Shown piece by piece: positions 830 to 29,549 of a DNA stretch of 64,000 bases. The position numbers and the translations under genes are program-made. The stretch is from Thermomonas paludicola (GTDB lineage Bacteria; Pseudomonadota; Gammaproteobacteria; Xanthomonadales; Xanthomonadaceae), in the NCBI RefSeq assembly GCF_024498955.1, contig NZ_CP093311.1:620001-684000 (forward strand). The letters run 5' to 3'. Within the stretch, counting starts at the first letter, position 1. Each line of letters opens with the position of its first letter. The notes under the pieces are model-generated. The model searched no databases and was not told the DNA's origin. It was given only the letters and a program-made list of their open reading frames with translations.

Positions 830-1093
830 CTGTGCGCTCTTGCGGTGAACCGCGAAACGAACAGGCCGGAAAGCCAATTTGTACCACGAAACCAAGCGCC
901 GTGTCAGCTGCGCGAAACCCGCTCTGGCTCTTGCTCTACAAGCGAACGCAGGCTGTAGATTTTGATCTTGATCTTGTTGCAATCTTGAAAGCTTCTTGCC
1001 GTTGAAGCGAGGTCAAAAAACGTCTTGCCAGATCATGCGTTGTGCGGGTGTCAATGTCTTTGCAAAGCACGCGCGGCATGTTGCTCTTCACAG
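830..1093 (-). repeat. Non-coding cassette body, copy 1 (reference copy)
   Basis: This body of about 265 bp occurs in 22 complete copies. No ORF is conserved between copies: short minus-strand ORFs change frame and length, and longer ones exist only by reading through attC. Its ends are inverted repeats, GTTAGACCTGTG and CACAGGTCTAAC, including the core boxes. The part near its own attC (left) is nearly invariant. The part near the other end (right, 5' in cassette sense) falls into several variants: V1 (TTTGAAAGGAATGCG), V2 (TTTGCAAGAGGTGTGCG), V3 (TTTGCAAAGCACGCG) and V4 (preceded by AAAGAAATGCGTTGCCA). This copy is V3 with attC type L. The next cassette downstream in minus-strand sense is the HNH gene. 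Confidence 0.9.
878..907 (-). promoter_or_regulatory. Conserved sigma70-like promoter candidate in non-coding cassette
   Basis: On the minus strand there is CTGACA, then 18 bases, then TACAAA: 5 of 6 and 4 of 6 matches to the -35 and -10 consensus. The pair lies at bases 48-77 of every body copy. The -10-like box is present in all 22 complete copies and CTGACA in 21; the copy at 11701 has CTGACG. It points through the cassette's own attC into the next cassette, about 50 bases away. Function is inferred from sequence only. Confidence 0.4.
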
Positions 1094-1153
1094 GTCTAAC
1101 ACCTGAGTTAAGCCGCGCCGCGAAGCGGCGTCGGCTTGGACGAATTGTTAGGT
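1094..1153 (-). repeat. attC 3, type S
   Basis: A 60-bp site with right arm GGCTTGGACGAATTG. Its right core box GTTAGGT matches the start of the cassette that carries the ORFs at 1148-1694. Confidence 0.9.
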
Positions 1154-1462
1154 GCCACCGGCAGCGTCCCGCAAAACTTGCGCTTGACTGCGGATGGTGC
1201 CGAGAAGTGCGTGGCGCATCTCATGGTAGATAGCGTCAGCTCCACCAGGGAAACTGCGGTGTTTCCGATCGCTGTAGAACAGCACCGCAAGCGACGCGAT
1301 TTTGGAGGCTTTCCGCGCTGCGTAGTGGTCAATGCCTGCCATCGACGTTGCAAGGAACTGCAATCGATTCACAGCCACAGAGTTGGCAATAGAAAGATCA
1401 TTTTCCGACAGGACGTTTTCAATTTCGGCGGCAACGCCAAGAATCTGATCAGAGGCAGACAT
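1148..1462 (-). CDS. Hypothetical cassette protein
   Basis: A 104-residue soluble protein, rich in alanine and helix-forming residues, with no family I recognise. The start at 1462 (MSASDQ) has AGGTG six bases upstream. The stop TAA is supplied by the right core box of its own attC, the usual arrangement for a sense-oriented cassette gene. Its 5' end overlaps the start of an ORF on the other strand (1461), so one of the two may be spurious. This one has the expected direction. Confidence 0.5.
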   Translation of the reverse strand: MSASDQILGVAAEIENVLSENDLSIANSVAVNRLQFLATSMAGIDHYAARKASKIASLAVLFYSDRKHRSFPGGADAIYHEMRHALLGTIRSQAQVLRDAAGGT

Positions 1463-1694
1463 GAACACACCTATGCACCTAGGGCCATTGACCGTAAAGC
1501 GCGTGTCGCTAATTTTTGTCGCGGCGCTTCTTGGGAGTGGAACAAAGGAGGATCCGGAAAGGACGGCGTTCTTTTACTACAACGACGACGGCGAAATGAT
1601 GGCTTGCTATGACCCGATCTATGGACCGCCAGATTGCCCCAACCAGATGCAGAGGAAAACGGTTGTGGCACCTAACGATCAAGTTCAGCCGTGA
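1461..1694 (+). CDS. Possible small exported protein, divergent to 1148-1462
   Basis: A 77-residue ORF with AGAGG five bases before the ATG. A short basic stretch and a hydrophobic segment (VSLIFVAALLG) come first and look like a signal peptide. A small polar domain with two cysteines (CYDPIYGPPDC) follows. It ends inside attC 4 with an attC-encoded tail (NDQVQP). It runs against the cassette direction and shares its first bases with the minus-strand ORF, so it is uncertain. Confidence 0.4.
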   Translation: MNTPMHLGPLTVKRVSLIFVAALLGSGTKEDPERTAFFYYNDDGEMMACYDPIYGPPDCPNQMQRKTVVAPNDQVQP

Positions 1695-1729
1695 CGCGAA
1701 GCGGCATCGGCTGCAACGCGTTGTTAGGT
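1670..1729 (-). repeat. attC 4, type Q
   Basis: Type Q is a 60-bp site with arms AAGTTCAGCCG and CGGCTGCAACGCG. The window has three (attC 4, 9 and 47), and each belongs to a cassette whose ORF is on the plus strand. This one belongs to the DUF551-like cassette. Confidence 0.9.
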
Positions 1730-1751
1730 GCCAGGACAACAGGAGAACGAG

Positions 1752-1982
1752 ATGAGTGAGTGGCAACCGATTGAAACTGCGCCGAAAGACGGCAGCGCAA
1801 TCCTCGCGGTAGTGAGGTGGATGTGGTCGGATGAGACGCTTGGGGAAGCGCAGGACGTCGTGCATTGGCATCAAGCTGGCTTTTGGGCATGCGCAACACC
1901 GATGAATTATTTGCAGGCGCTAGATGAAGGCGTGAACCCGACGCATTGGCGACCGCTGCCCGCACCGCCAGTAAGCACCTAA
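1752..1982 (+). CDS. DUF551-like small protein (reverse-oriented cassette)
   Basis: A 76-residue protein with the pattern WQPIETAPKDG at the start and THWRPLPAPP near the end. This is the signature of DUF551-type proteins, common in phages and prophages; their function is unknown. AGGAG lies six bases before the ATG. The ORF fills the cassette from attC 4 rightward, and its stop TAA is the TAA of the next core box (1980-1982). It is antisense to the attC orientation, so the array promoter would not express it. A second DUF551-like cassette lies at 4714-4914. Confidence 0.75.
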   Translation: MSEWQPIETAPKDGSAILAVVRWMWSDETLGEAQDVVHWHQAGFWACATPMNYLQALDEGVNPTHWRPLPAPPVST

Positions 1983-2064
1983 CGCCCGAATTGAGCCGGG
2001 CCGCTGCGAGTGAATAGAACCGCCGAGGCAATGAAGCGGCCTCGGCTCAAATGAGTTGTTAGCC
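1977..2064 (-). repeat. attC 5, 88 bp, divergent
   Basis: The arms are CGAATTGAGCCG and CGGCTCAAATGAG. The loop is longer than in type S. It belongs to the cassette with the plus-strand ORF at 2088. Cassette ends: GTTAGCCGTCATG and CATGACGGCTAAC, 13 bp fully complementary. Confidence 0.85.
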
Positions 2065-2087
2065 GTCATGCGGCTACGGAGAACGAA

Positions 2088-2393
2088 ATGGGAAACTGGA
2101 ATCACACAGAAGCGCGCGGATCATCCCACGGCACGATGCGCTGCACGGCCTGCGGTAAGCAGGTTGAAAGCGGGCGCTACCGCTACCGGCAGAAGTCGAA
2201 GCGCGGCGATTGGGTATACCAGGTTCAGCACGAGGCTTGCTGCTTGGAGGATTCCGCGTGGGCGGCAATGGATGCACAGCAAGTCGCGCACGAAAAGCGC
2301 ATGGCCGAACTGTCTGCCGCGTGCGCGGCATTCAAGAAAACATGGGGCGTTAGCGAACTCGATGACTACATCTTCGATGAAGCCGGGGCATGA
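2088..2393 (+). CDS. Hypothetical cysteine-rich protein (reverse-oriented cassette)
   Basis: A 101-residue protein with a CTAC pair at about residues 19-22 and a later HEACC, a plausible single zinc site. A helical alanine-rich C-terminal half follows. GGAG lies six bases before the ATG. The stop TGA is its own, just before the next core box. I do not recognise the family. The small size, zinc-ribbon-like start and plus-strand orientation match the other phage-like reverse cassettes. Confidence 0.6.
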   Translation: MGNWNHTEARGSSHGTMRCTACGKQVESGRYRYRQKSKRGDWVYQVQHEACCLEDSAWAAMDAQQVAHEKRMAELSAACAAFKKTWGVSELDDYIFDEAGA

Positions 2394-2394
2394 C

Positions 2395-2485
2395 GGCTAA
2401 CACTTGAGTTAAGCCGCTGCGCTGCGGCTGCACACGAACCCCGACGCGACCACGAAGCGCAGTCGGCTTGAACGAATTGTTAGCC
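2395..2485 (-). repeat. attC 6, 91 bp
   Basis: The loop CGCTGCGCTGCGG followed by ACGAACCCCGA resembles attC 70 (30657), whose cassette also carries a plus-strand ORF. It belongs to the DUF4326 cassette. Confidence 0.87.
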
Positions 2486-2497
2486 AGTGAGGCGACC

Positions 2498-2806
2498 ATG
2501 CCAGAAAGAATACAACTGAGACGCGCGAAGGGCTGGCGGATGCCAGAGAACACCGTGAAGGTTGATCGCAGCACGCGCTGGGGGAATCCGTTTGCGCCAG
2601 GCAAATGCGGGCCGTTCGGACGCGATCCGATAGACGCAGAAGGTGCAGTTGGATTCTTCACCGACATGCTGCGCGACGATCAAATGCGCGCGACTGCTCG
2701 CTTCCCGTTCGATCTTTCGCCGCTGCGGGGGAAGAACCTTGCTTGCTGGTGCAAGCCGGGTGCGCTGTGCCACGCAGATGTGTTGCTTTCACTGGCTAAC
2801 ACCTGA
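2498..2806 (+). CDS. DUF4326 family protein (reverse-oriented cassette)
   Basis: A 102-residue protein. The central TRWGNPF and the C-terminal GKNLACWCKPGALCHAD are the conserved elements of DUF4326, a small family frequent in phages and phage-like islands; its function is not established. GAGG lies five bases before the ATG at 2498. The frame runs into the next attC and stops at the TGA of AACACCTGA, so the last two residues (Asn-Thr) are attC-encoded. It is antisense to the cassette direction. Confidence 0.75.
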   Translation: MPERIQLRRAKGWRMPENTVKVDRSTRWGNPFAPGKCGPFGRDPIDAEGAVGFFTDMLRDDQMRATARFPFDLSPLRGKNLACWCKPGALCHADVLLSLANT

Positions 2807-2853
2807 ATTAAGCCGCGCCGCGAAGCGGCGTCGGCTTGAATGAATTGTTAGCC
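2794..2853 (-). repeat. attC 7, type S
   Basis: Core boxes GGCTAAC and GTTAGCC; right arm GAATGAATTG. It belongs to the HhH-GPD-like cassette. Confidence 0.9.
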
Positions 2854-2855
2854 CA

Positions 2856-3533
2856 TCATATCTGACCGGGTGCCCCGCGTTGCAGCTCCCAAATGGCCAA
2901 ATCCAGCTCTCGCGGTGTCTTGCCGATATCTCTAGCTACGCTAATCAACGCGCTAATAGTGGCGTCAAAACTTGGAGAGTAGCCAATGGTAGATGACACG
3001 AAGTTGATGATATGAACGTCTGGTTTGATCGTCTCTACCCCGGCGCGCATTATTAGCCATTGAAATACCGCAGGACCAAGACCCTTGATCTTGCCTTTGA
3101 AGTCGTCCTTGAAGGTTGCAGACGTTGCCCATTGCTTTAGGGAGTCTGCGTCCACTACGCCGATGCTTATGAATTGTGCCACTAAGCCGCGCAGTTGCTC
3201 CAATCTTGTCCAGTGCTTGTAACCCCAGAGTGTGACGGCAGCGTCTGTGTTGCCTTGTTTGTCATTGGGGTAACGATCAAGAAACGCAGCCAACTGATGT
3301 ATGTCATGAATATAGTCGCCGTGAGCGCGAACGAATCTCTCGTGCGCCTTATTGACGATTGTGTTGTGCAGTTGATAGTCAAGAACAGTCAGGATGACGT
3401 TAGACAAGAAGCTCTGAACGGCGTAGTCACCTTGATGTGGCGGCAGCGTCTGGCAACGAGCCAAAAGTTTCTCGTAGTCGGTCTGAGACAACACGGCTTG
3501 GGCCGAGCTTGGTGTTGGATAACAGGACTGCAT
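2856..3533 (-). CDS. HhH-GPD-like DNA glycosylase-fold protein
   Basis: A 225-residue protein. Around residues 150-185 it has a helix-hairpin-helix-like KIKGLGPAVFQW followed by KPDVHIINF. This matches the order and spacing of the HhH-GPD fold of base-excision glycosylases, including the conserved Asp of PDVHI. The lysine that gives endonuclease III its lyase activity is absent from the hairpin, so a monofunctional glycosylase or an inactive relative is possible. The preferred start is at 3533 because AAGG lies five bases upstream; an in-frame ATG exists at 3545. Assignment is by motif only. Confidence 0.55.
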   Translation of the reverse strand: MQSCYPTPSSAQAVLSQTDYEKLLARCQTLPPHQGDYAVQSFLSNVILTVLDYQLHNTIVNKAHERFVRAHGDYIHDIHQLAAFLDRYPNDKQGNTDAAVTLWGYKHWTRLEQLRGLVAQFISIGVVDADSLKQWATSATFKDDFKGKIKGLGPAVFQWLIMRAGVETIKPDVHIINFVSSTIGYSPSFDATISALISVARDIGKTPRELDLAIWELQRGAPGQI

Positions 3534-3549
3534 CGAACCTTCCATGATG

Positions 3550-3609
3550 GGCTAACGCCTGAATTAAGCCGCGCCGCGAAGCGGCGTCGGCTTGAATGAA
3601 TTGTTAGGC
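3550..3609 (-). repeat. attC 8, type S
   Basis: Left core GGCTAAC, right core GTTAGGC. It belongs to the lipoprotein cassette 3612-3983. Confidence 0.9.
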
Positions 3610-3611
3610 CC

Positions 3612-3983
3612 TTACTGAGGGCACTTCGTATCCCATGAGGCTTGGAACTCTGCTTTACCTTCCGGCGAGCTCGAGCCATCAAACAGCGTTGCCCCGCCAG
3701 CACCAGCGCGATTGACGGTGGTGATGAAGCGTTGCTGGACGTTGTTGAGAGCAAGTGGGCCGCTACCTGGGCGATTGAGGGTGCTGAGGCCGCATACATA
3801 ATAAAATCGCTCGACCGAATCGTTGAGCTTAATGCTGGATGAGTCGATAGTGACCTCGATGTCACTTGCGACCTGTCTACGCAAGAGTTGCTCAGCCGTG
3901 GAGATTTTTTGGGCCGTGGGATCGGTACAGCCTGCTGCAAGGGTGAATGGCGCAAGAATCAAGATTTTTTTGAGAGGTCTCAT
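3612..3983 (-). CDS. Putative lipoprotein
   Basis: A 123-residue protein. A basic start and hydrophobic run end in the lipobox LAAGC at about residue 19, so it should be lipidated and attached to a membrane. The mature part is polar with two further cysteines and no recognised domain. GGAAAC precedes the ATG. It lies in cassette sense with its own stop just before attC 8. Confidence 0.65.
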   Translation of the reverse strand: MRPLKKILILAPFTLAAGCTDPTAQKISTAEQLLRRQVASDIEVTIDSSSIKLNDSVERFYYVCGLSTLNRPGSGPLALNNVQQRFITTVNRAGAGGATLFDGSSSPEGKAEFQASWDTKCPQ

Positions 3984-3998
3984 ATTGTTTCCTGAAGG

Positions 3999-4058
3999 GC
4001 CTAACGATCAAGTTCAGCCGTGACGCGAAGCGGCATCGGCTGCAACGCGTTGTTAGAT
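3999..4058 (-). repeat. attC 9, type Q
   Basis: Almost the same sequence as attC 4. It belongs to the adenine methyltransferase cassette. Cassette ends: GTTAGATGCC and GGCATCTAAC. Confidence 0.9.
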
Positions 4059-4079
4059 GCCGACCCCACAAGGAGCGAT

Positions 4080-4610
4080 ATGAAAGACGATACGAAGCCG
4101 ATGCACCAGAGTTTGCTGCCGCCAGCCGACAACAAGTTTCACGTTGGCAATGGCGAGGACGGCAAACACTACTGGCTCACGCCACCTGAATTGCTGAACC
4201 AGCTTGCGGCCGAGCATGGGCCGTTCGATTTTGACCCGTGCCCGTGCCCGTGCCCGTTTCCGAAGCCGGACAGCTTCGATGGGCTTACATGCGAATGGGG
4301 CGAGTGCAGCTATGTAAATCCGCCGTTCGGCTCGATCTTGCACCAGGGGCCGGACGACAAGAAGCCGAAGAAGAAAGGCCCGACCGCATGGGTGCGCAAG
4401 GCAATCACCGAGGCCGAGAAAGGCAAGCGCGTGGTGCTGGTCTATCCGGTGGACAAGTGGCTTCTGATGCTGCTCGCGGCAGGCGCGAAGGTTTCCAACC
4501 TGGGCGACGTGCGCTGGCACGCCACCGAGGATGGATCCGTAGGCAAGGGCACGGGCCGGCACATTGCCTGCTTTGTGCTGGACGGTGCGAAAGAGGCATC
4601 TAACACCTGA
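4080..4610 (+). CDS. Phage-type DNA N6-adenine methyltransferase (reverse-oriented cassette)
   Basis: A 176-residue protein. A WLTPPELL start (residues 32-39), DPCPCP at 52-57 and the catalytic NPPF at 80-83 give the layout of phage N-6-adenine methyltransferases, which transfer methyl groups from SAM to adenine. AGGAG lies four bases before the ATG. Codons 53-58 come from a short hexanucleotide repeat (cccgtg) near 4237-4256, which could change in copy number without a frameshift. The stop TGA lies inside the next attC, with Asn-Thr as last residues. Such methyltransferases usually protect phage DNA from restriction. It is antisense to the cassette direction. Confidence 0.8.
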   Translation: MKDDTKPMHQSLLPPADNKFHVGNGEDGKHYWLTPPELLNQLAAEHGPFDFDPCPCPCPFPKPDSFDGLTCEWGECSYVNPPFGSILHQGPDDKKPKKKGPTAWVRKAITEAEKGKRVVLVYPVDKWLLMLLAAGAKVSNLGDVRWHATEDGSVGKGTGRHIACFVLDGAKEASNT

Positions 4611-5298: not shown

Positions 5299-5358
5299 CG
5301 CTAACACCTGAATTAAGCCGCGCCGCGAAGCGGCGTCGGCTTGAATGAATTGTTAGAC
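5299..5358 (-). repeat. attC 12, type S
   Basis: Left arm GAATTAAG, right arm GAATGAATTG. It belongs to non-coding copy 2. Confidence 0.9.
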
Positions 5359-5623
5359 CTGTGCGCTCTTGCGGTGAACCGCGAAACGAACAGGCCGGAA
5401 AGCCAATTTGTACCACGAAATCAAGTGCCGTGTCAGCTGCGCGAAACCCGCTCTGGCTCTTGCTCTACAAGCGAATGCAGGCTGTAGATTTTGACCTTGA
5501 TCTTGTTGCAAATTTGAAGACTTCTTGCCGTTGAAGCGAGGTCAAAAAACATCTTTCCAGATCATGAGCTGTTGCAGGCTTCAATGGCTTTGCAAGAGGT
5601 GTGCGGCTTGTTGCTCTTCACAG
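5359..5623 (-). repeat. Non-coding cassette body, copy 2
   Basis: Leader variant V2, attC type S, promoter-like element at 5407-5436. The next gene downstream is the membrane protein 4978-5295, in the same direction. Confidence 0.9.
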
Positions 5624-5731
5624 GTCTAACACCTGAGTTAAGCCGTGCCACTGCACGGCCGCAAACAAGAACGAACATGCCGAAAAAAATTGCGGCCGTG
5701 AAGTGGCATCGGCTTGAACGAATTGTTAGAC
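5624..5731 (-). repeat. attC 13, type L
   Basis: Loop reads CATGCCG where most type L sites read CATACCG. It belongs to non-coding copy 3. Confidence 0.92.
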
Positions 5732-5996
5732 CTGTGCGCTCTTGCGGTGAACCGCGAAACGAACAGGCCGGAAAGCCAATTTGTACCACGAAACCAAGCG
5801 CCGTGTCAGCTGCGCGAAACCCGCTCTGGCTCTTGCTCTACAAGCGAACGCAGGCTGTAGATTCTGATCTTGATCTTGTTGCAAATTTGAAAGCTTCTTG
5901 CCGTTGAAGCGAGGTCAAAAAACATCTTTCCAGATCATGAGCTGTTGCAGGCTTCAATGGCTTTGCAAGAGGTGTGCGGCTTGTTGCTCTTCACAG
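5732..5996 (-). repeat. Non-coding cassette body, copy 3
   Basis: Leader variant V2, attC type L, promoter-like element at 5780-5809. It points into copy 2. Its leader (5930-5996) is the same as that of copy 2, although the two attC types differ. Confidence 0.9.
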
Positions 5997-6108
5997 GTCT
6001 AACACCTGAGTTAAGCCGACCTGCGTAGCGCAGGTAACGGCGTGGCAAGCTTTCTCTGCCACGCCGTTGCCGGAGCGAAGTAGGTTCGGCTTGAACGAAT
6101 TGTTAGGC
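5997..6108 (-). repeat. attC 14, 112 bp
   Basis: Long loop with CGGCGTGGCAAGCTT paired to CACGCCGTTGCCG, the same subtype as attC 72. It belongs to the cassette body at 6109-6384. Confidence 0.88.
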
Positions 6109-6384
6109 ACATGGCTCTTGCGATGAACCGCCAGCCGCCACGCGCCAGAGAGCCGATTTGTATCACGAAGTCATCCGCTGCGCCCGTTGCGATGCACAAA
6201 CTACTTGCATCTGGTCGCATGGCAAGGCGACTGAAGCCCAGCACGATGTAAATTTCTCTGCCGATGAGCGTTTCTGCAGTGCTGTCATTCAATGCAACGT
6301 GGTGTCTGCGGATCGCAGATTACTAACCAGCATGCTAATCATTATAAGTGAATACCGCGAGCGCGAGTCGCTCTTGCTCTTAAA
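6109..6384 (-). other. Cassette without a convincing gene; diverged relative of the non-coding body
   Basis: The first 60 bases keep GCTCTTGCGATGAACCGC and ATTTGTATCACGAA, close to the invariant part of the repeated body. The CTGACA box is gone and the remaining 200 bases are unrelated. ORFs exist on both strands (for example a 79-codon plus-strand ORF at 6158-6397 with CxxC), but each relies on attC sequence for one end. I cannot choose between a decayed promoter cassette, a hybrid and a small gene. Confidence 0.5.
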
Positions 6385-6444
6385 GCCTAACACCTGAATT
6401 AAGCCGCGCCGCGAAGCGGCGTCGGCTTGAATGAATTGTTAGAC
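6385..6444 (-). repeat. attC 15, type S
   Basis: Left core GCCTAAC, right core GTTAGAC. It belongs to non-coding copy 4. Confidence 0.9.
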
Positions 6445-6709
6445 CTGTGCGCTCTTGCAATGAACCGTAAAGTGAACAGGCCGGAAAGCCAATTTGTACC
6501 ACGAAACCAAGCGCCGTGTCAGCCACGTGAAGCCCGCTCTGGCGCTTGCTCTACAAGCGAACGCAGGCTGTAGATTTTGATCTTGATCTTGTTGCAAATT
6601 TGAAAGCTTTTTGCCGTTGAAGCGAGGTCAAAAAACATCTTTCCAGATCATGAGCTGTTGCGAGTTTCAATGACTTTGAAAGGAATGCGCGGCATGTTGC
6701 TCTTCACAG
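6445..6709 (-). repeat. Non-coding cassette body, copy 4
   Basis: Leader variant V1, attC type S, promoter-like element at 6493-6522. The left end reads GCAATGAACCGTAAAG instead of GCGGTGAACCGCGAAA. Confidence 0.9.
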
Positions 6710-6817
6710 GTCTAACACCTGAGTTAAGCCGTGCCACTGCACGGCCGCAAACAAGAACGAACATACCGAAAAAAATTGCGGCCGTGAAGTGGCATCGGCT
6801 TGAACGAATTGTTAGAC
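6710..6817 (-). repeat. attC 16, type L
   Basis: It belongs to non-coding copy 5. Confidence 0.92.
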
Positions 6818-7082
6818 CTGTGCGCTCTTGCAATGAACCGTAAAGTGAACAGGCCGGAAAGCCAATTTGTACCACGAAACCAAGCGCCGTGTCAGCCACG
6901 TGAAGCCCGCTCTGGCGCTTGCTCTACAAGCGAACGCAGGCTGTAGATTTTGATCTTGATCTTGTTGCAAATTTGAAAGCTTTTTGCCGTTGAGGCGAGG
7001 TCAAAAAACATCTTTCCAGATCATGAGCTGTTGCGGGTTTCAATGACTTTGAAAGGAATGCGCGGCATGTTGCTCTTCACAG
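6818..7082 (-). repeat. Non-coding cassette body, copy 5
   Basis: Leader variant V1, attC type L, promoter-like element at 6866-6895. It is almost the same as copy 4 in the body, but copy 4 has a type S attC. Confidence 0.9.
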
Positions 7083-7189
7083 GTCTAACACCTGAGTTAA
7101 GCCGGACCGCTGCGCGGCACGGCGTGATGGTACACGCCACCATTTAAGCCGAGCCGCGAAGCGGTCTCGGCTTGAACGAATTGTTAGAC
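7083..7189 (-). repeat. attC 17, type D
   Basis: Type D sites are 107-108 bp long with two nested hairpins: GGACCGC pairs with GCGGTCTC outside, and inside lies a second AAGCCGAGCCGCGAAG module that itself looks like a type S arm. Sites 17, 29, 34, 42 and 49 are of this type. This one belongs to the cassette at 7144-7587. Confidence 0.9.
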
Positions 7190-10113: not shown

Positions 10114-10173
10114 ACCTAACACCTGAATTAAGCCGCGCCGCGAAGCGGCGTCGGCTTGAATGAATTGTTAGAC
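10114..10173 (-). repeat. attC 23, type S
   Basis: It belongs to non-coding copy 6. Confidence 0.9.
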
Positions 10174-10438
10174 CTGTGCGCTCTTGCGGTGAACCGCGAA
10201 ACGAACAGGCCGGAAAGCCAATTTGTACCACGAAATCAAGTGCCGTGTCAGCTGCGCGAAACCCGCTCTGGCTCTTGCTCTACAAGCGAATGCAGGCTGT
10301 AGATTTTGACCTTGATCTTGTTGCAAATTTGAAGACTTCTTGCCGTTGAAGCGAGGTCAAAAAACATCTTTCCAGATCATGAGCTGTTGCAGGCTTCAAT
10401 GGCTTTGCAAGAGGTGTGCGGCTTGTTGCTCTTCACAG
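10174..10438 (-). repeat. Non-coding cassette body, copy 6
   Basis: Leader variant V2, attC type S, promoter-like element at 10222-10251. The gene downstream is DUF2726 (9564-10094). With its attC it appears the same as copy 2. Confidence 0.9.
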
Positions 10439-10498
10439 GTCTAACACCTGAATTAAGCCGCGCCGCGAAGCGGCGTCGGCTTGAATGAATTGTTAGGG
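10439..10498 (-). repeat. attC 24, type S
   Basis: Left core GTCTAAC and right core GTTAGGG do not pair fully with each other. The right core pairs instead with the far end of its own cassette (GGGCCCTAAC). Confidence 0.9.
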
Positions 10499-10894: not shown

Positions 10895-10954
10895 CCCTAA
10901 CACCTGAATTAAGCCGCGCCGCGAAGCGGCGTCGGCTTGAATGAATTGTTAGAC
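10895..10954 (-). repeat. attC 25, type S
   Basis: It belongs to non-coding copy 7. Confidence 0.9.
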
Positions 10955-11218
10955 CTGTGCGCTCTTGCGGTGAGCCGTGAAACGAACAGGCCGGAAAGCC
11001 AATTTGTACCACGAAATCAAGCGTCGTGTCAGCCACGTGAAGCCCGCTCTGGCTCTTGCTCTACAAGCGAATGCAGGCTGTAGATTTTGACCTTGATCTT
11101 GTTGCAAATTTGAAAGCTTCTTGCCGTTGAAGCGAGGTCAAAAAATGTCTTATCAGATCATGCGTTGTGCGGGTGTCAATGTCTTTGCAAAGCACGCGCG
11201 GCTTGTTGCTCTTCACAG
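10955..11218 (-). repeat. Non-coding cassette body, copy 7
   Basis: Leader variant V3 with TGTCTTATCAGATCATGCG, attC type S, promoter-like element at 11003-11032. Copies 11 and 20 read the same at the diagnostic positions. Confidence 0.9.
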
Positions 11219-11326
11219 GTCTAACACCTGAGTTAAGCCGTGCCACTGCACGGCCGCAAACAAGAACGAACATACCGAAAAAAATTGCGGCCGTGAAGTG
11301 GCATCGGCTTGAACGAATTGTTAGAC
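11219..11326 (-). repeat. attC 26, type L
   Basis: It belongs to non-coding copy 8. Confidence 0.92.
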
Positions 11327-11592
11327 CTGTGCGCTCTTGCAATAAGCCATAAAGCGAACAGGCCGGAACGCCAATTTGTACCACGAAATCAAGCGCCGTG
11401 TCAGTTGCGCGAAACCCGCTCTGGCTCTTGCTCTACAAGCGAATGCAGGCTGTAGATTCTGATCTTGATCTTGTTGCAAATTTGAAAGCTTCTTGCCGTT
11501 CAAGCGAGGTCAAAGAAATGCGTTGCCAGGTAGTGCGCTGTCGCGGGTTTCAATGACTTTGCAGAGAATGCGCGGCCTGTTGCTCTTCACAG
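11327..11592 (-). repeat. Non-coding cassette body, copy 8
   Basis: Leader variant V4, attC type L, promoter-like element at 11375-11404. The left end reads GCAATAAGCCATAAAG, unlike copy 10, although the rest matches it. Confidence 0.9.
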
Positions 11593-11700
11593 GTCTAACA
11601 CCTGAGTTAAGCCGTGCCACTGCACGGCCGCAAACAAGAACGAACATACCGAAAAAAATTGCGGCCGTGAAGTGGCATCGGCTTGAACGAATTGTTAGAC
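11593..11700 (-). repeat. attC 27, type L
   Basis: It belongs to non-coding copy 9. Confidence 0.92.
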
Positions 11701-11965
11701 CTGTGCGCTCTTGCGGTGAACCGCGAAACGAACAGGCTGGAAAGCGAATTTGTACCACGAAATCAAGTGCCGCGTCAGCTGCGCGAAACCCGCTCTGGCT
11801 CTTGCTCTACAAGCGAATGCAGGCTGTAGATTTTGACCTTGATCTTGTTGCAAATTTGAAAGCTTTTTGCCATTGAAGCGAGGTCAAAAAACATCTTTCC
11901 AGGTCATGAGCTGTTGTGGGTTTCAATGGCTTTGTAAGGAAAGCGCGGCTTGTTGCTCTTCACAG
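11701..11965 (-). repeat. Non-coding cassette body, copy 9
   Basis: Leader related to V1 (TTTGTAAGGAAAGCG), attC type L. Promoter-like element at 11749-11778; it is the only complete copy with CTGACG instead of CTGACA. Confidence 0.9.
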
Positions 11966-12025
11966 GTCTAACACCTGAGTTAAGCCGCGCCGCGAAGCGG
12001 CGACGGCTTGAATGAATTGTTAGAT
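11966..12025 (-). repeat. attC 28, type S
   Basis: Stem tip CGGCGACGG instead of CGGCGTCGG. It belongs to 12020-12547. Confidence 0.9.
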
Positions 12026-18272: not shown

Positions 18273-18301
18273 GCTGTGCTGTGCTGTGCTGTGCTGTGCT
18301 G
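18273..18301 (-). repeat. Pentanucleotide tract in the SGNH hydrolase leader
   Basis: Five full units of GCTGT (AGCAC in coding sense) plus a partial sixth. The ATG at 18319 is followed by 15 bases of coding sequence and then this tract. With 29 bases the frame does not continue into the membrane anchor and hydrolase; with 24 (four units) or 39 (seven units) it does. Confidence 0.85.
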
Positions 18302-18325
18302 GTCACGACTATGTTCCATAAAGAA

Positions 18326-18433
18326 GTCTAACACCTGAGTTAAGCCGTGCCACTGCACGGCCGCAAACAAGAACGAACATACCGAAAAAAATTGCGGCCG
18401 TGAAGTGGCATCGGCTTGAACGAATTGTTAGAC
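18326..18433 (-). repeat. attC 41, type L
   Basis: It belongs to non-coding copy 13, directly upstream of the SGNH leader. Confidence 0.92.
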
Positions 18434-18698
18434 CTGTGCGCTCTTGCGGTGAACCGCGAAACGAACAGGCTGGAAAGCGAATTTGTACCACGAAACCAAG
18501 CGCCGTGTCAGCCACGTGAAGCCCGCTCTGGCTTTTGCTCTACAAGCGAATGCAGGCTGTAGATTTTGATCTTGATCTTGTTGCAAATTTGAAGACTTCT
18601 TGCCGTTGAAGCGAGGTCAAAAAACACCTTGCCAGATCATGAGCTGTTGCAGGCTTCAATGGCTTTGCAAGAGGTGTGCGGCTTTTTGCTCTTCACAG
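18434..18698 (-). repeat. Non-coding cassette body, copy 13
   Basis: Leader variant V2, attC type L, promoter-like element at 18482-18511. It points into the SGNH hydrolase cassette. Confidence 0.9.
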
Positions 18699-18806
18699 GT
18701 CTAACACCTGAGTTAAGCCGGACCGCTGCGCGGCACGGCGGTGTGGTACACGTTACCGCACTAAGCCGAGCCGCGAAGCGGTCTCGGCTTGAACGAATTG
18801 TTAGGC
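18699..18806 (-). repeat. attC 42, type D
   Basis: Same sequence as attC 34 apart from the left core. It belongs to DUF3024 copy 2. Confidence 0.9.
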
Positions 18807-20653: not shown

Positions 20654-20711
20654 CTAACACCTGAATTAAGCCGCGCCGCGAAGCGGCGTCGGCTTGAATG
20701 AATTGTTAGAC
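20652..20711 (-). repeat. attC 46, type S
   Basis: It belongs to non-coding copy 14. Confidence 0.9.
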
Positions 20712-20977
20712 CTGTGCGCTCTTGCGGTGAGCCGTGAAACGAACAGGCCGGAAAGCCAATTTGTACCACGAAATCAAGCGTCGTGTCAGCCACGTGAAGC
20801 CCGCTCTGGCTCTTGCTCTACAAGCGAATGCAGGCTGTAGATTTTGACCTTGATCTTGTTGCAAATTTGAAGGCTTCTTGCCGTTCAAGCGAGGTCAAAG
20901 AAATGCGTTGCCAGGTAGTGTGCTGTCGCGGGTTTCAATGACTTTGCAAAGTGTGCGCGGCAGGTTGCTCTTCACAG
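20712..20977 (-). repeat. Non-coding cassette body, copy 14
   Basis: Leader V4-like with TTTGCAAAGTGTGCG, attC type S, promoter-like element at 20760-20789. Confidence 0.9.
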
Positions 20978-21037
20978 GTCTAACGACCAAGTTCAGCCGT
21001 GACGCGAAGCGGCATCGGCTGCAACGCGTTGTTAGAC
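20978..21037 (-). repeat. attC 47, type Q
   Basis: Third type Q site (GACCAAGTTCAGCCG). It belongs to the plus-strand cassette 21058-21339. Confidence 0.9.
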
Positions 21038-22293: not shown

Positions 22294-22353
22294 CCCTAAC
22301 GCCTGAATTAAGCCGCGCCGCGAAGCGGCGTCGGCTTGAATGAATTGTTAGGC
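22294..22353 (-). repeat. attC 50, type S
   Basis: Left core CCCTAAC. It belongs to 22348-22815. Confidence 0.9.
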
Positions 22354-22815
22354 CCGCAGTTCATAGGCGCCTAGTAGCCCGTAAAGCTTTCGTAGCAGCG
22401 CCTCAAACTGTGGGTCACCCTCAAGGGCGTCTACCCGATAGCGGACGAGGTAAAATTCAGATTCAGTTCTGATCTTGCCGCGGGTCAATACTTTGTCAAG
22501 GCGTTTCTCGTCCCTGCTTTGGAACTCAGGGTATTCCGTGGAAATTGCTGAATTGAAAGCCTTTGCCACAGCGGGACGGCACTGAGCCCCGACTGCAGCA
22601 ATAATGTCGGGCATCTCTCTAAGCCCTTGCTCCAAGCCGGATGCGATCTCGCTGGGTCTAGGAGCTGAATCTTTGGCGAGAAGGCCGGCTACCCAGCTAC
22701 CGGTGTCGACGGAGTTGCGATGGAGTTTTTGTGCCCAAGGATCAGGAATAGCTTCGATCTCAGCACCGAAACGTTCATACACAGCAACCAGCTTCTGAAG
22801 TTTCGTCAGTTTCAT
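22348..22815 (-). CDS. Hypothetical helical protein
   Basis: A 155-residue soluble helical protein that begins MKLTKLQKLVAVYERFGAEIEAIPDPW. No motif or family recognised. GGAAG lies six bases before the ATG at 22815; an upstream in-frame ATG at 22827 lies in the cassette end. The promoter-like element of the cassette at 22940 lies upstream, the last of five consecutive non-coding cassettes that all point this way. Confidence 0.55.
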   Translation of the reverse strand: MKLTKLQKLVAVYERFGAEIEAIPDPWAQKLHRNSVDTGSWVAGLLAKDSAPRPSEIASGLEQGLREMPDIIAAVGAQCRPAVAKAFNSAISTEYPEFQSRDEKRLDKVLTRGKIRTESEFYLVRYRVDALEGDPQFEALLRKLYGLLGAYELRA

Positions 22816-22831
22816 CGGAACTTCCATGCGG

Positions 22832-22939
22832 GCCTAACACCTGAGTTAAGCCGTGCCACTGCACGGCCGCAAACAAGAACGAACATACCGAAAAAAATTG
22901 CGGCCGTGAAGTGGCATCGGCTTGAACGAATTGTTAGAC
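22832..22939 (-). repeat. attC 51, type L
   Basis: It belongs to non-coding copy 15. Confidence 0.92.
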
Positions 22940-23204
22940 CTGTGCGCTCTTGCGGTGAACCGCGAAACGAACAGGCCGGAAAGCCAATTTGTACCACGAA
23001 ACCAAGCGCCGTGTCAGCTGCGCGAAACCCGCTCTGGCTCTTGCTCTACAAGCGAGCGCAGGCTGTAGATTCTGATCTTGATCTTGTTGCAAATTTGAAA
23101 GCTTCTTGCCGTTGAAGCGAGGTCAAAAAACATCTTGCCAGATCATGGGCTGTTGCGGGTTTCAATGACTTTGAAAGGAATGCGCGGCATGTTGCTCTTC
23201 ACAG
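22940..23204 (-). repeat. Non-coding cassette body, copy 15
   Basis: Leader variant V1, attC type L, promoter-like element at 22988-23017. First of a run of five copies (15-19). Confidence 0.9.
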
Positions 23205-23312
23205 GTCTAACACCTGAGTTAAGCCGTGCCACTGCACGGCCGCAAACAAGAACGAACATGCCGAAAAAAATTGCGGCCGTGAAGTGGCATCGGCTTGAAC
23301 GAATTGTTAGAC
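23205..23312 (-). repeat. attC 52, type L
   Basis: CATGCCG variant in the loop, as in attC 13. It belongs to non-coding copy 16. Confidence 0.92.
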
Positions 23313-23577
23313 CTGTGCGCTCTTGCGGTGAACCGCGAAACGAACAGGCTGGAAAGCGAATTTGTACCACGAAACCAAGCGCCGTGTCAGCCACGTGAAG
23401 CCCGCTCTGGCTTTTGCTCTACAAGCGAATGCAGGCTGTAGATTTTGATCTTGATCTTGTTGCAAATTTGAAGACTTCTTGCCGTTGAAGCGAGGTCAAA
23501 AAACATCTTTCCAGATCATGAGCTGTTGCGAGCTTCAATGACTTTGAAAGGAATGCGCGGCATGTTGCTCTTCACAG
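23313..23577 (-). repeat. Non-coding cassette body, copy 16
   Basis: Leader variant V1, attC type L, promoter-like element at 23361-23390. Confidence 0.9.
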
Positions 23578-23685
23578 GTCTAACACCTGAGTTAAGCCGT
23601 GCCACTGCACGGCCGCAAACAAGAACGAACATACCGAAAAAAATTGCGGCCGTGAAGTGGCATCGGCTTGAACGAATTGTTAGAC
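23578..23685 (-). repeat. attC 53, type L
   Basis: It belongs to non-coding copy 17. Confidence 0.92.
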
Positions 23686-23950
23686 CTGTGCGCTCTTGCA
23701 ATGAACCGTAAAGTGAACAGGCCCGAAAACCCATTTGTACCACGAAATCAAGCGCCGTGTCAGTCACGTGAAGCCCGCTCTGGCTCTTGCTCTACAAGCG
23801 AATGCAGGCTGTAGATTTTGATCTTGATCTTGTTGCAAATTTGAAAGCTTCTTGCCGTTGAAGCGAGGTCAAAAAACACCTTGCCAGATCATGATCTGTT
23901 GCGAGCTTCAATGACTTTGAAAGGAATGCGCGGCTTGTTGCTCTTCACAG
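23686..23950 (-). repeat. Non-coding cassette body, copy 17
   Basis: Leader variant V1, attC type L. Promoter-like element at 23734-23763 is intact although flanking bases differ (GGCCCGAAAACCC). Confidence 0.9.
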
Positions 23951-24010
23951 GTCTAACACCTGAATTAAGCCGCGCCGCGAAGCGGCGTCGGCTTGAATGA
24001 ATTGTTAGAC
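23951..24010 (-). repeat. attC 54, type S
   Basis: It belongs to non-coding copy 18. Confidence 0.9.
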
Positions 24011-24274
24011 CTGTGCGCTCTTGCGGTGAGCCGTGAAACGAACAGGCCGGAAAGCCAATTTGTACCACGAAACCAAGCGCCGTGTCAGCTGCGTGAAACC
24101 CGCTCTGGCTCTTGCTCTACAAGCGAACGCAGGCTGTAGATTTTGATCTTGATCCTGTTGCAAATTTGAAAGCTTCTTGCCGTTGAAGCGAGGTCAAAAA
24201 TATCTTTCCAGATCATGAGCTGTTGCAGGCTTTAATGGCTTTGCAAGAAGTGTGCGGCTTGTTGCTCTTCACGG
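24011..24274 (-). repeat. Non-coding cassette body, copy 18
   Basis: Leader variant V2, attC type S, promoter-like element at 24059-24088. Ends TTCACGGG instead of TTCACAGG. Confidence 0.9.
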
Positions 24275-24334
24275 GTCTAACACCTGAATTAAGCCGCGCC
24301 GCGAAGCGGCGTCGGCTTGAATGAATTGTTAGAC
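24275..24334 (-). repeat. attC 55, type S
   Basis: It belongs to non-coding copy 19. Confidence 0.9.
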
Positions 24335-24598
24335 CTGTGCGCTCTTGCGGTGAACCGCGAAACGAACAGGCCGGAAAGCCAATTTGTACCACGAAACCAA
24401 GCGCCGTGTCAGCTGCGCGAAACCCGCTCTGGCTCTTGCTCTACAAGCGAACGCAGGCTGTAGATTTTGATCTTGATCTTGTTGCAATCTTGAAAGCTTC
24501 TTGCCGTTGAAGCGAGGTCAAAAAACGTCTTGCCAGATCATGCGTTGTGCGGGTGTCAATGTCTTTGCAAAGCACGCGCGGCATGTTGCTCTTCACAG
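24335..24598 (-). repeat. Non-coding cassette body, copy 19
   Basis: Leader variant V3, attC type S, promoter-like element at 24383-24412. The body matches copy 1, which has a type L attC. Confidence 0.9.
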
Positions 24599-24686
24599 GT
24601 CTAACACCTGAGCTAACCCGCGCCGCCGTGAGCGCGTGATTTCACCGTGAACCCGAAGCGGCGTCGGGTTGAGCGAATTGTTAGGG
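24599..24686 (-). repeat. attC 56, 88 bp, divergent
   Basis: Arms CTGAGCTAACCCG and CGGGTTGAGCG. It belongs to the Lar cassette (plus-strand ORF). Confidence 0.87.
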
Positions 24687-24701
24687 CGCGGAGGCCCGAA
24701 T

Positions 24702-25025
24702 ATGAAGCCAATCAAGATGCTGCCATGCCCCTTCTGCGAAGGCCCGCCATCCGTGATTGTGCAAAACGATCACCCGGACTATGGCCTTGCACTGCGACTA
24801 GATGGCTATGGGGAAATAGGAAAGGAAGTACGGGCGTTTGTTTTCTGCCACGAATGCGGCGCACGAAGCGAAACCGAAGAAGATTGCATTTATACGGGTG
24901 ATGAGTACGACGATTTAGAGGCTCGCGCCTGCGTGCGATGGAACCAGCGCGATAGCCGCCATCGCTCCATGTACGACGAAGGCGATGCACGAGGCTTGAA
25001 CCTTCACCCGCGCCCTAACACCTGA
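24702..25025 (+). CDS. Lar-like restriction alleviation protein (reverse-oriented cassette)
   Basis: A 107-residue protein. MLPCPFCEGPP at the start, FCHECGARSETEED in the middle and ACVRWNQR at the end are the signature of the Lar (restriction alleviation) zinc-ribbon family, known from lambdoid phages and prophages. The Rac Lar protein reduces type I restriction; many relatives are of unproven function. The last residues (Asn-Thr-stop) are from attC 57. It is antisense to the cassette direction and lies directly opposite the promoter-like element of 25073. Confidence 0.75.
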   Translation: MKPIKMLPCPFCEGPPSVIVQNDHPDYGLALRLDGYGEIGKEVRAFVFCHECGARSETEEDCIYTGDEYDDLEARACVRWNQRDSRHRSMYDEGDARGLNLHPRPNT

Positions 25026-25072
25026 ATTAAGCCGCGCCGCGAAGCGGCGTCGGCTTGAATGAATTGTTAGAC
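25013..25072 (-). repeat. attC 57, type S
   Basis: It belongs to non-coding copy 20. Confidence 0.9.
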
Positions 25073-25336
25073 CTGTGCGCTCTTGCGGTGAGCCGTGAAA
25101 CGAACAGGCCGGAAAGCCAATTTGTACCACGAAATCAAGCGTCGTGTCAGCCACGTGAAGCCCGCTCTGGCTCTTGCTCTACAAGCGAATGCAGGCTGTA
25201 GATTTTGACCTTGATCTTGTTGCAAATTTGAAAGCTTCTTGCCGTTGAAGCGAGGTCAAAAAATGTCTTATCAGATCATGCGTTGTGCGGGTGTCAATGT
25301 CTTTGCAAAGCACGCGCGGCTTGTTGCTCTTCACAG
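25073..25336 (-). repeat. Non-coding cassette body, copy 20
   Basis: Leader variant V3, attC type S, promoter-like element at 25121-25150. Its downstream neighbour (Lar) is on the opposite strand, so transcription from here would be antisense to it. Confidence 0.9.
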
Positions 25337-25396
25337 GTCTAACACCTGAGTTAAGCCGCGCCGCGAAGCGGCGTCGGCTTGAACGAATTGTTAGAA
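25337..25396 (-). repeat. attC 58, type S
   Basis: Right core GTTAGAA. It belongs to 25391-25705. Confidence 0.9.
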
Positions 25397-25705
25397 CTCA
25401 CGAAGCATGTCCTCAGCGCATCCGTCGCGATATTCCTCCAAGTCAAGCATTGTATTGTGAACGGCAGCCGCATCGACTTTGTCTCTAACGATCAGGTGCA
25501 CTGCCTCAATAAATGCAATCGCTTTTCTTTGTTCAAAATTTTTGCCGTGGACATAGGAGTTGCATGCAAGAGTTGTGCTTCTGTAAGCGTCAGAAGCGCG
25601 GATTGTGTCCGGCCAAGGAACAAGCTTGACATTGGCTGTTCCAGGGGTCCAACAAAGCATAGCGTTCGTGCAATCGAAGCGCGGATCTTCTAGCTTTTTG
25701 TGCAT
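25391..25705 (-). CDS. Hypothetical cassette protein
   Basis: A 104-residue soluble protein that begins MHKKLEDPRFDCTNAMLCWTPG, with a central SDAYRSTTLACNSYVHG and an acidic helical end (LDLEEYRDGCAEDMLREF). No family recognised. The start is at 25705 with GGGAG about ten bases upstream. The stop TAG/TAA is in the core box of attC 58. Confidence 0.55.
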   Translation of the reverse strand: MHKKLEDPRFDCTNAMLCWTPGTANVKLVPWPDTIRASDAYRSTTLACNSYVHGKNFEQRKAIAFIEAVHLIVRDKVDAAAVHNTMLDLEEYRDGCAEDMLREF

Positions 25706-26564: not shown

Positions 26565-26672
26565 GCCTAACACCTGAGTTAAGCCGTGCCACTGCACGGC
26601 CGCAAACAAGAACGAACATACCGAAAAAAATTGCGGCCGTGAAGTGGCATCGGCTTGAACGAATTGTTAGAC
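26565..26672 (-). repeat. attC 61, type L
   Basis: It belongs to non-coding copy 21. Confidence 0.92.
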
Positions 26673-26936
26673 CTGTGCGCTCTTGCGGTGAACCGCGAAA
26701 CGAACAGGCTGGAAAGCGAATTTGTACCACGAAACCAAGCGCCGTGTCAGCTGCGCGAAACTCGCTCTGGCTCTTGCTCTACAAGCGAACGCAGGCTGTA
26801 GATTTTGACTTTGATCTTGTTGCAAATTTGAAAGCTTCTTGCCGTTGAAGCGAGGTCAAAAACATCTTTCCAGATCATGAGCTGTTGCGAGTTTCAATGG
26901 CTTCGCAAGGAAAGCGCGGCTTGTTGCTCTTCACAG
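26673..26936 (-). repeat. Non-coding cassette body, copy 21
   Basis: Leader related to V1 (CTTCGCAAGGAAAGCG), attC type L, promoter-like element at 26721-26750. Confidence 0.9.
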
Positions 26937-26996
26937 GTCTAACACCTGAGTTAAGCCGCGCCGCGAAGCGGCGTCGGCTTGAACGAATTGTTAGGT
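26937..26996 (-). repeat. attC 62, type S
   Basis: Right core GTTAGGT, whose AGGTGG extension serves as ribosome site for the plus-strand ORF at 27002. Confidence 0.9.
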
Positions 26997-28171: not shown

Positions 28172-28181
28172 TGCGGCCCCA

Positions 28182-28553
28182 TTAATGCGTGCGGCTAAAG
28201 AACAGCACAAGGAGAAGGGCGACCACTAGCCCGGCTTGGACACAGCGATCAATAAATTTGTCCTGGTTGATCTCCCACCACGTTGGTGTTGGCACTCCTG
28301 AAAGAAGTAGGCGGAATCCTTGGTCATCATCAGCAGCGATGGTTATTGGGAGCCCATCTCTATCTGACTTGGTTGTCAAGATTGAGCCATCTGGAAGTAG
28401 GTACAACATCGCGTCACCTGCAGGGATTATGCGTCGTGACGGATGGCGTAAGTCAAGCGTGTCTTTAGGACTGTCAGAGAGCCTAAGTGTGTAACCTGCA
28501 TGTAAGAGGATCGACAATCTCCAATTACATGGGTTCTCTGCTTGGGGTTGCAT
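28182..28553 (-). CDS. Tail-anchored membrane protein
   Basis: A 123-residue protein. A polar domain (about 95 residues, with MLYLLPDGSILTTKSDRDG) is followed by one transmembrane segment at the C-terminus (AGLVVALLLVLFF) and five more residues, a tail-anchor layout. GGAGAG lies seven bases before the ATG. No family recognised. Confidence 0.6.
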   Translation of the reverse strand: MQPQAENPCNWRLSILLHAGYTLRLSDSPKDTLDLRHPSRRIIPAGDAMLYLLPDGSILTTKSDRDGLPITIAADDDQGFRLLLSGVPTPTWWEINQDKFIDRCVQAGLVVALLLVLFFSRTH

Positions 28554-28568
28554 TAATGTCTCTCCGCA

Positions 28569-28632
28569 GCCTAACGTTTGAGCTCAGGGCGCGGCCCGTC
28601 AGGGCCGTCGACCCTGCAGCGAATGGTTAGAC
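28569..28632 (-). repeat. attC 66, 64 bp, divergent
   Basis: Arms GAGCTCAGGGC and GACCCTGCAGCG. It belongs to the DUF805 cassette. Confidence 0.85.
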
Positions 28633-28677
28633 GCGCCAGCACTGATTTGCATTAACGCGGCCGGAACAACCCGGTTT

Positions 28678-29139
28678 CTATACCAGATTGCCGTAGTCAT
28701 TCTCCCGGTCGTCTCCCTTACTTGCGAGCCAATATATCAAGGGGATCAACCCAATCACAGTAAACGCGATTAGCTGCCACCAGCCGCTGTGATTCGTGTC
28801 ATGAAGCCTGCGAGAGCCCGCTGCGAGAACAGGGATCAGAACGGCAAGGTTAATAACCAGAGATAGAATTTGCGTACTGTCTACCAAGATGGCGCCCCAA
28901 CTTAGAAGCACTGTAAATAGATAAAACCACCAGTACTCTGGCCTGGCAGACCTGCCATTGAAGTCTGCGTATTTAGAAAAACACGTTGATATCGCTTTCC
29001 CGAATGTCATCTGACTTACAGCGCCGCTATCCATGGAAACCACACCGACTTCGACGCTGGTTGCACCAAGGCTCTTGCCGCAACCAGAGCAGAACTTTGA
29101 ATCGTTTGAGTTTTCAACTCCACACTTTTGACAGAACAT
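28678..29139 (-). CDS. Zinc-ribbon DUF805 membrane protein
   Basis: A 153-residue protein. The start MFCQKCGVENSNDSKFCSGCG is a classical zinc ribbon (two CxxC). After a linker comes DUF805: FNGRSARPEYWWFYLF, two hydrophobic helices, then AGSRRLHDTNHSGWWQLI and a last helix. DUF805 proteins are inner-membrane proteins of unclear role. AAGGAG lies seven bases before the ATG, one of the best ribosome sites in the array. The promoter-like element of 29284 lies upstream. About 45 bases between its stop and attC 66 hold nothing I recognise. Confidence 0.8.
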   Translation of the reverse strand: MFCQKCGVENSNDSKFCSGCGKSLGATSVEVGVVSMDSGAVSQMTFGKAISTCFSKYADFNGRSARPEYWWFYLFTVLLSWGAILVDSTQILSLVINLAVLIPVLAAGSRRLHDTNHSGWWQLIAFTVIGLIPLIYWLASKGDDRENDYGNLV

Positions 29140-29175
29140 GTCTTTCTCCTTGTGATGATTGACTATTCAGAGCGC

Positions 29176-29283
29176 GTCTAACACCTGAGTTAAGCCGTGC
29201 CACTGCACGGCCGCAAATAAGAACGAACATACCGAAAAAAATTGCGGCCGTGAAGTGGCATCGGCTTGAACGAATTGTTAGAC
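29176..29283 (-). repeat. attC 67, type L
   Basis: AAATAAG where other type L loops have AAACAAG. It belongs to non-coding copy 22. Confidence 0.92.
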
Positions 29284-29549
29284 CTGTGCGCTCTTGCGGT
29301 GAACCGTGAAACGAACAGGCCGGAACGCCAATTTGTACCACGAAATCAAGCGCCGTGTCAGCCACGTGAAGCCCGCTCTGGCTCTTGCTCTACAAACGAA
29401 CGCAGGCTGTAGATCTTGACCTTGATCTTGTTGCAAATTCGAAAGCTTCTTGCTGTTCAAGCGAGATCAAAGAAATGCGTTGCCAAGTAGTGTGCTGTCG
29501 CGGATTTCAATGACTTTGCAAGCACTGCGCGGCATGTTGCTCTTCACAG
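29284..29549 (-). repeat. Non-coding cassette body, copy 22 (closest to attI)
   Basis: Leader V4-like with TTTGCAAGCACTGCG, attC type L, promoter-like element at 29332-29361. No further copy lies in the last 2.5 kb before attI. Confidence 0.9.

Follow-up and report, generated by a model that had tools for sequence, protein, structure and literature searches.

A recombining family of gene-less integron cassettes in Thermomonas paludicola, most likely a portable promoter

The analyses presented here concern a 64,000-nucleotide stretch of the Thermomonas paludicola chromosome (NZ_CP093311.1, positions 620,001–684,000; hereafter the window, negative positions lying before its first base), a chromosome available as a single contig of 2.72 Mb of which the cassette array within the window is part. 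They describe a family of gene-less integron cassettes that is most likely, at roughly an even chance, a portable promoter reading in the sense direction of the cassettes. The array is headed by an integron integrase gene (intI), the repeated body is bordered by attC sites and present in 24 copies forming 13 runs, the copies have exchanged sequence, two attC types are distributed independently of the bodies, and the body has no coding signature. Promoter function ranks first among the explanations as judged from these sequences, and neutral or selfish spread comes next. The new results of the present analysis are the recombination between copies, the body-independent attC types, and the multicopy gene-less families found in other Thermomonas arrays, several of which have a covarying hairpin in common.

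The body has the traits of a multicopy cassette: it is flanked by an attC site on each side in an array with an integron integrase at its head, and it is repeated within one array, its relatives elsewhere being confined to a half copy in another genome (G014). A scan for attC arms gave 75 attC sites from −1620 to 31647 and hence 74 cassettes between them, the first cassette beside attI being additional. The 24 full copies in the genome comprise 22 that are complete in the window (828–29551; Table 1), one crossing the window start (−144..124) and one outside (−515..−249); the body measures 267–270 bp, has no recognisable gene and occurs as 19 distinct sequences. A sequence-only reading of the same DNA had counted 22 complete copies and one cut at position 1, to which the copy outside the window is now added, and about 12 runs, where we find 13 across the array, of which 12 consist of copies complete within the window. 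Its estimate that they fill roughly a quarter of the array holds for bodies with their own attC (about 24% of 1–31647) and not for the bodies alone (about 19%). Because 13 runs compare with 16.5 expected under random placement (P 0.05), the copies, 24 of 74 cassettes, are dispersed through the array and slightly clustered. An exact CTGACA-N18-TACAAA lies on the cassette-sense strand at the same offset in 21 of the 22 complete window copies, the exception (11699–11967) having CTGACG in place of CTGACA with TACAAA kept, which reproduces the −10-like box in 22 and the −35-like box in 21 copies reported previously. The same element written on the plus strand, TTTGTA-N18-TGTCAG, has 21 exact matches in the window and none in 100 shuffles.

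Linkage between variants indicates that the copies recombine with one another. Among 36 two-state sites in the 19 distinct bodies, r2 falls from 0.44 at distances below 10 bases to about 0.07 beyond 60 bases, a correlation of linkage with distance reached by none of 1000 permutations, and all four gametes occur in 399 of 630 site pairs; we read both the decay and the four-gamete pairs as exchange. Each body is joined to one of two unlike attC sites, either a 104-nt type (14 copies), which among the attC sites listed for the array accompanies only copies of the repeated body, or a 56-nt type common in the array (10 copies). The type is independent of body similarity: the mean number of body differences is 24.9 within an attC type and 25.0 between types, and the identical bodies 828–1095 and 24333–24600 are joined to unlike types. 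Dispersal of the body by the integrase, as previously proposed, is at most part of the story, because recombination likewise transfers sequence between copies. No special feature of the ends of the body was found, since its 7-base terminal complementarity is ordinary in the array (7 bases in 26 of 50 other cassettes and at least 6 bases in 40 of 50).

Variation along the body is uneven. Mean diversity is 0.092 for the whole body, 0.037 for the 30-column block holding the element and 0.007 for its two hexamers; one stretch of 15 columns averages 0.24, four runs of 11–16 bases are invariant, and the invariant run TTTCGTGGTACAAAT is present in all 24 copies. The block is thus more conserved than the body on average, and the alignment outcome that the sequence-only reading had named as fatal to its proposal (a block as variable as the rest) does not arise. 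The block is not unique, however: counting itself, five of 240 windows of 30 columns are as conserved (three among the 181 that lie clear of it), as are 15–16 of 240 hexamer pairs of equal geometry. On the 19 distinct bodies the windows of lowest diversity start at columns 135–137 and 189–190, so that there are two conserved stretches, of which the element is one.

We suggest a mechanism in which the integrase would excise and reinsert body–attC units while homologous recombination among the copies would generate mosaics. RNA polymerase would start at or near CTGACA-N18-TACAAAT, about 50 bases before the end of the body, where a TG before the −10 resembles an extended −10, and transcription would cross the attC into the next cassette; therefore genes far from attI could be transcribed. 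With matrices built from Escherichia coli sigma70 frequencies, the element scores 9.05 and in 20 of 24 copies outranks every other sense-strand sigma70-like site in the body, the mean best score over bodies being 9.2 on the sense and 5.8 on the antisense strand. A sense site as good as the element is found in three of 50 other cassettes of the array. When dinucleotides were shuffled (one member per family, 100 shuffles), four of 100 shuffles matched the element score, a result that can be held for the promoter as well as against it.

Several observations weigh against a promoter. The hexamers are weak, the −10-like TACAAA matching at four of six positions and lacking the final T, and 14.7% of 300 mononucleotide shuffles attain the element score; a strict promoter scan of 22300–25100, which requires T at the last −10 position, gave no site. 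Once the attC is included, the element is the top site in only nine of 24 copies; TTCACG-N17-TATGTT, on the sense strand of the 104-nt attC (e.g. 724–827), is top in 12, and the body site TTGACA-N16-TCTGAT in three. The second conserved block (from column 135) is conserved at least as strongly as the element block, and the relative 6107–6386, in which TGATACAAAT is kept and 45 of 60 bases match over about the last 60, retains the −10 half without the −35-like hexamer. There is also a slight general sense bias (409 non-family cassettes average 6.5 sense against 6.2 antisense, p 0.008), and in the 12 other multicopy families no sense site exceeds the shuffles at p<0.05. Moreover, promoters of gene-less cassettes are, according to PMC11014356, not identifiable in silico.

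Nor do the neighbours of the copies stand apart. The next cassette points in the sense direction and starts within 150 bases after 10 of 13 runs; this agrees with the earlier count of 10 in about 12 runs but does not exceed the background frequency, as 27 of the 37 other non-copy cassettes do the same (Fisher p 0.55). Cassette gene direction was taken from the longer open reading frame (ORF) only, whereby 6107–6386, which looks gene-less and has a 93-codon frame unlikely to be a gene, was counted as sense; the ten include it and exclude 17585–18327, with an ORF from base 205. In a Pfam run on ten next-cassette ORFs (17585–18327 in, 6107–6386 out), a DUF805 zinc-ribbon, a GDSL lipase and a DUF2726 protein were above cut-off, three ORFs had sub-threshold matches only (one HNH) and four had none at 0.01. 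The proposal of a promoter cassette is plausible in view of the element's rank as best sense site in 20 of 24 copies, its conservation and the Vibrio precedent discussed below, and is weakened by the poor hexamers and the lack of downstream enrichment.

The same data bear on neutral or selfish spread, which we consider possible though doubtful: a cassette with no role in expression would have become abundant through frequent recombination and the growth and shrinkage of runs, its conserved blocks reflecting recent common descent, exchange or the needs of recombination. Such spread would be in keeping with the slight clustering (13 runs against 16.5, P 0.05), identical copies lying far apart, the extensive exchange and the absence of a downstream orientation bias, as well as with a narrow range (two of 395 genomes of the family, the present one included); selfish elements are, moreover, among the two options that PMC1382264 names for Vibrio multicopy cassettes. 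It accounts less readily for the contrast between a 15-column stretch at 0.24 and four invariant runs of 11–16 bases, and the terminal complementarity, with 7 bases ordinary for the array, does not mark the ends as special.

Whether the body derives from a gene was considered from its frames. Of the 24 copies, 23 have an open sense frame of 52–60 codons that terminates in the attC, 22 of them on its own and one inside an 88-aa frame; the latter, in the copy −515..−249, spans the body, opening with a GTG at base 5 and closing at a stop codon within the attC, and a frameshift or a stop separates 23 of 24 copies from it. By the limit of Blanco et al. (2024), ORFs above 210 bp, two copies have one (a sense frame of 88 aa at −515 and an antisense frame of 75 aa at 13178); by that of Boucher et al. 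(2006), above 150 bp, the 52–60 codon frame is just over in 22 of 24 and the 88-aa frame is found in one. The earlier statement that the copies share no conserved ORF is accordingly inexact, given the short frame open in 23 of 24. The bodies lack a coding signature: the 35 variants fall 11/11/13 by codon position, with a synonymous fraction of 0.314 against 0.322 expected. There is a very small chance that the copies are decayed forms of a cassette for a small protein of about 88 aa, which would survive intact at −515..−249 alone. The G014 half copy is open in the same frame over 62 codons and its differences fall 9/11/18 at codon positions 1/2/3, which would fit such an origin; that distribution is not significant, however (chi-square, approximately p 0.17), and the G014 and 88-aa frames agree only via compensating single-base gaps. 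In addition to the missing codon signature in the 24 copies, a protein search made with the 88-aa frame only (two candidates) gave no match at E≤0.1, and a Pfam search of that frame gave none.

An RNA product was the other alternative raised by the sequence-only reading, which pointed to sRNA-Xcc1. This identity is rejected, as searches with RF02221 were negative in the genome and, at gathering, in the window; sRNA-Xcc1 occurs in another genome of the genus (L044, G013:C1:12066-12151, 78.5 bits). A multicopy small or structured RNA of another kind made from the body we consider unlikely. The most conserved window does hold an inverted repeat, TCTACAGC...GCTTGTAGA, predicted to form a helix, and several gene-less families in other Thermomonas arrays bear a hairpin with compensatory changes. 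However, the body helix has no covariation support, because its pairs scarcely vary, and one pair is lost in the G014 relative; the covarying hairpin of the other arrays is absent from the present one. A single body was folded, with a stability like that of shuffles (z −0.45 and −0.40 on the two strands), and 22300–25100 holds no terminator-like site. At gathering, the only Rfam match across the window is a tRNA (56960–57041), and a permissive scan of 22300–25400 gave a single match at E 0.51, to a miRNA family and located within an attC.

The present family adds to an already known class of multicopy gene-less integron cassettes and is not a new kind, because multicopy Vibrio cassettes (2006), promoter activity in gene-less cassettes (2019–2024) and a Xanthomonas empty cassette (2025) have been published. 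Boucher et al. (2006; PMC1382264) described highly repeated non-coding Vibrio cassettes, up to 45 per array (45 in one V. vulnificus strain and 34 in another), with a narrow host range, and raised gene conversion and promoter, RNA or selfish roles. The family described here belongs to the Lysobacteraceae, and exchange in it is backed by linkage decay and body-independent attC types; the decay indicates, among gene-less cassettes of one array, an exchange that PMC1382264, in the portions available, suggested without showing. Widespread transcription of a Vibrio array from internal promoters was reported in 2010 (PMC2945992), and gene-less cassettes were shown to be active as promoters in 2019 (PMC6557892) and 2024 (PMC11014356), the latter giving sense activity for eight of 10 cassettes of V. 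cholerae, three of four of V. parahaemolyticus, 11 of 13 of V. vulnificus and all those tested of V. fischeri. Like the present family, the cassettes of Blanco et al. (2024; PMC11014356) are attC-bounded, gene-less and part of a long chromosomal array, with a sense promoter, which is measured in Vibrio and predicted in Thermomonas, the two being likened by description. Their bodies are longer (335–515 bp without attC, against 267–270 bp), and exchange between copies, as in Thermomonas, was not found described for them in the available portions of that paper. The recurring empty cassette of the 2025 Xanthomonas survey (PMC12444791) is likewise gene-less, several per array, from the same family of bacteria and suggested as a possible promoter, again as compared by description, whereas the present body has no relatives outside one genus among 395 genomes of the family. 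sRNA-Xcc1 (RF02221) is similar in being integron-cassette-borne and non-coding (PMC12444791), and differs in that the present genome has no match to it while G013 of the same genus is positive. Literature on Thermomonas integrons and on repeated or gene-less cassettes, screened by title and the opening of the abstract, contained no report of the present family.

Relatives of the body were found in two of 395 family genomes, the present one and G014 of the same genus, and the conserved 27-base pattern, with at most three mismatches, in the same two. In G014 a contig edge truncates the relative, leaving a half copy with 77% identity over that part; identity per 20 bases ranges from 10 to 18, with 18 and 15 in the bins over the first conserved stretch, and the second conserved stretch is cut off after CTGAC. 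Plasmids and phages held no relatives of the body, nor did viral contigs when scanned for the exact pattern only; a pattern scan of genome contigs gave one stretch, in Thermomonas sp. metagenome-assembled genome DF_7_1.31, which we regard as the record of G014 contig 6. A match in G010 was rejected, there being no further likeness around the matched place.

Other Thermomonas arrays were surveyed by taking the present array with chosen stretches of G001, G002, G010, G016, G017, G020 and G022; G020 was dropped (fewer than four attC sites), wrong-strand attC matches were removed, and the G001 array begins before the stretch taken (hairpin matches from 761778). The 566 cassettes from seven genomes form 13 families of at least four copies, of which F11 alone has a long ORF whose length is constant (121–122 aa, five of five); the other 12 are short, with no ORF or one of varying or short length. 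Families of at least four, the coding F11 included, make up 24/74 cassettes in the present genome (G000), 27/120 in G001, 23/92 in G016, 53/205 in G022, 5/41 in G010 and 0/25 in G002, and the four large arrays of the genus (L078–L092) hold gene-less families of their own. Profile searches connect F3–F5–F10, F7–F8 and F9–F12, while the present family, F1, connects only to 6107–6386.

Considering these arrays together with the exchange among copies, it is conceivable, though rather unlikely, that the copies are promoter modules belonging to a single recombining population within the chromosome; the integrase would scatter them and homologous recombination would reshuffle their bodies and attC sites, creating an array-wide expression network, and the families of the other Thermomonas arrays would have evolved separately for the same job. 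If so, promoter variants would be reassorted collectively across the array. The means by which genes remote from attI are expressed in long integrons and the reason why gene-less cassettes multiply are questions posed by 2006 at the latest (PMC1382264), and 24 copies with natural variants in a single-contig genome make them testable.

Table 1. Features of the T. paludicola integron in the window (element, CTGACA-N18-TACAAA; attC lengths in nt)
Feature	Position	Strand	Element	attC	Remarks
Copy crossing window start	1-124	-		104	full extent -144..124; own attC outside window
Copy	828-1095	-	878-907	104	attC 724-827; body identical to 24333-24600
Copy	5357-5625	-	5407-5436	56	body identical to 10172-10440
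Copy	5730-5998	-	5780-5809	104	
Distant relative, not a copy	6107-6386	-			similarity confined to final ~77 bp; nhmmer E 6.7e-8
Copy	6443-6711	-	6493-6522	56	body identical to 13828-14096
Copy	6816-7084	-	6866-6895	104	
Copy	10172-10440	-	10222-10251	56	
Copy	10953-11220	-	11003-11032	56	body identical to those starting 13504, 25071
Copy	11325-11594	-	11375-11404	104	
Copy	11699-11967	-	11749-11778	104	element by offset, CTGACG variant
Copy	13178-13447	-	13228-13257	104	
Copy	13504-13771	-	13554-13583	56	
Copy	13828-14096	-	13878-13907	56	
Copy	18432-18700	-	18482-18511	104	
Copy	20710-20979	-	20760-20789	56	
Copy	22938-23206	-	22988-23017	104	
Copy	23311-23579	-	23361-23390	104	
Copy	23684-23952	-	23734-23763	104	stop inside 52-codon frame
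Copy	24009-24276	-	24059-24088	56	
Copy	24333-24600	-	24383-24412	56	
Copy	25071-25338	-	25121-25150	56	
Copy	26671-26938	-	26721-26750	104	
Copy closest to attI	29282-29551	-	29332-29361	104	
Cassette array inside window	1-31647	-			extends left from attI; cassette sense = minus strand
attI junction and first cassette	31540-32091	-			junction GTTAGGTGC at 32083-32091, read by eye; attC 31540-31647
intI, integron integrase	32129-33262	+			points away from array; TIGR02249 integrase_gron 476.7 bits (cut-off 265); Pfam Phage_integrase

In the gene-less families of the other arrays we observed a hairpin with a symmetric TCC/TCC internal loop (14 of 15 members of F3, 13 of 13 of F5 and six of six of F10; e.g. 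G001:C1:775637-775681), which also occurs in some members of F7 and F8 and, in a looser form, of F2 (G001, G016, G022; L078–L087). Over 22 rows, picked by a finder that requires pairing so that the pairing statistics are biased, the inner stem is 97% paired, with changes on both sides in seven of eight pairs and a pairing reached by none of 1000 shuffles; the outer stem is 74% paired, above all shuffles, with both-side changes no more than in shuffles. A covariance model of the hairpin found it in three of 60 related genomes, all of this genus, with none in the present genome, and the window and L009 gave chance-level matches only (E 0.24 to 0.68); Rfam at gathering had no match in 140 kb from the G001, G016 and G022 arrays.

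Within the present array, the longer ORF is opposed to the array direction in 12 cassettes, seven of them within the distal 14 of 74 (window 1152–4599 and −1564..−620). Finally, three coding cassettes are duplicated (7188–7593/12668–13073, 14633–15022/18805–19194 and 181–723/15400–15942), with 99–100% identity over the 300 bp compared.

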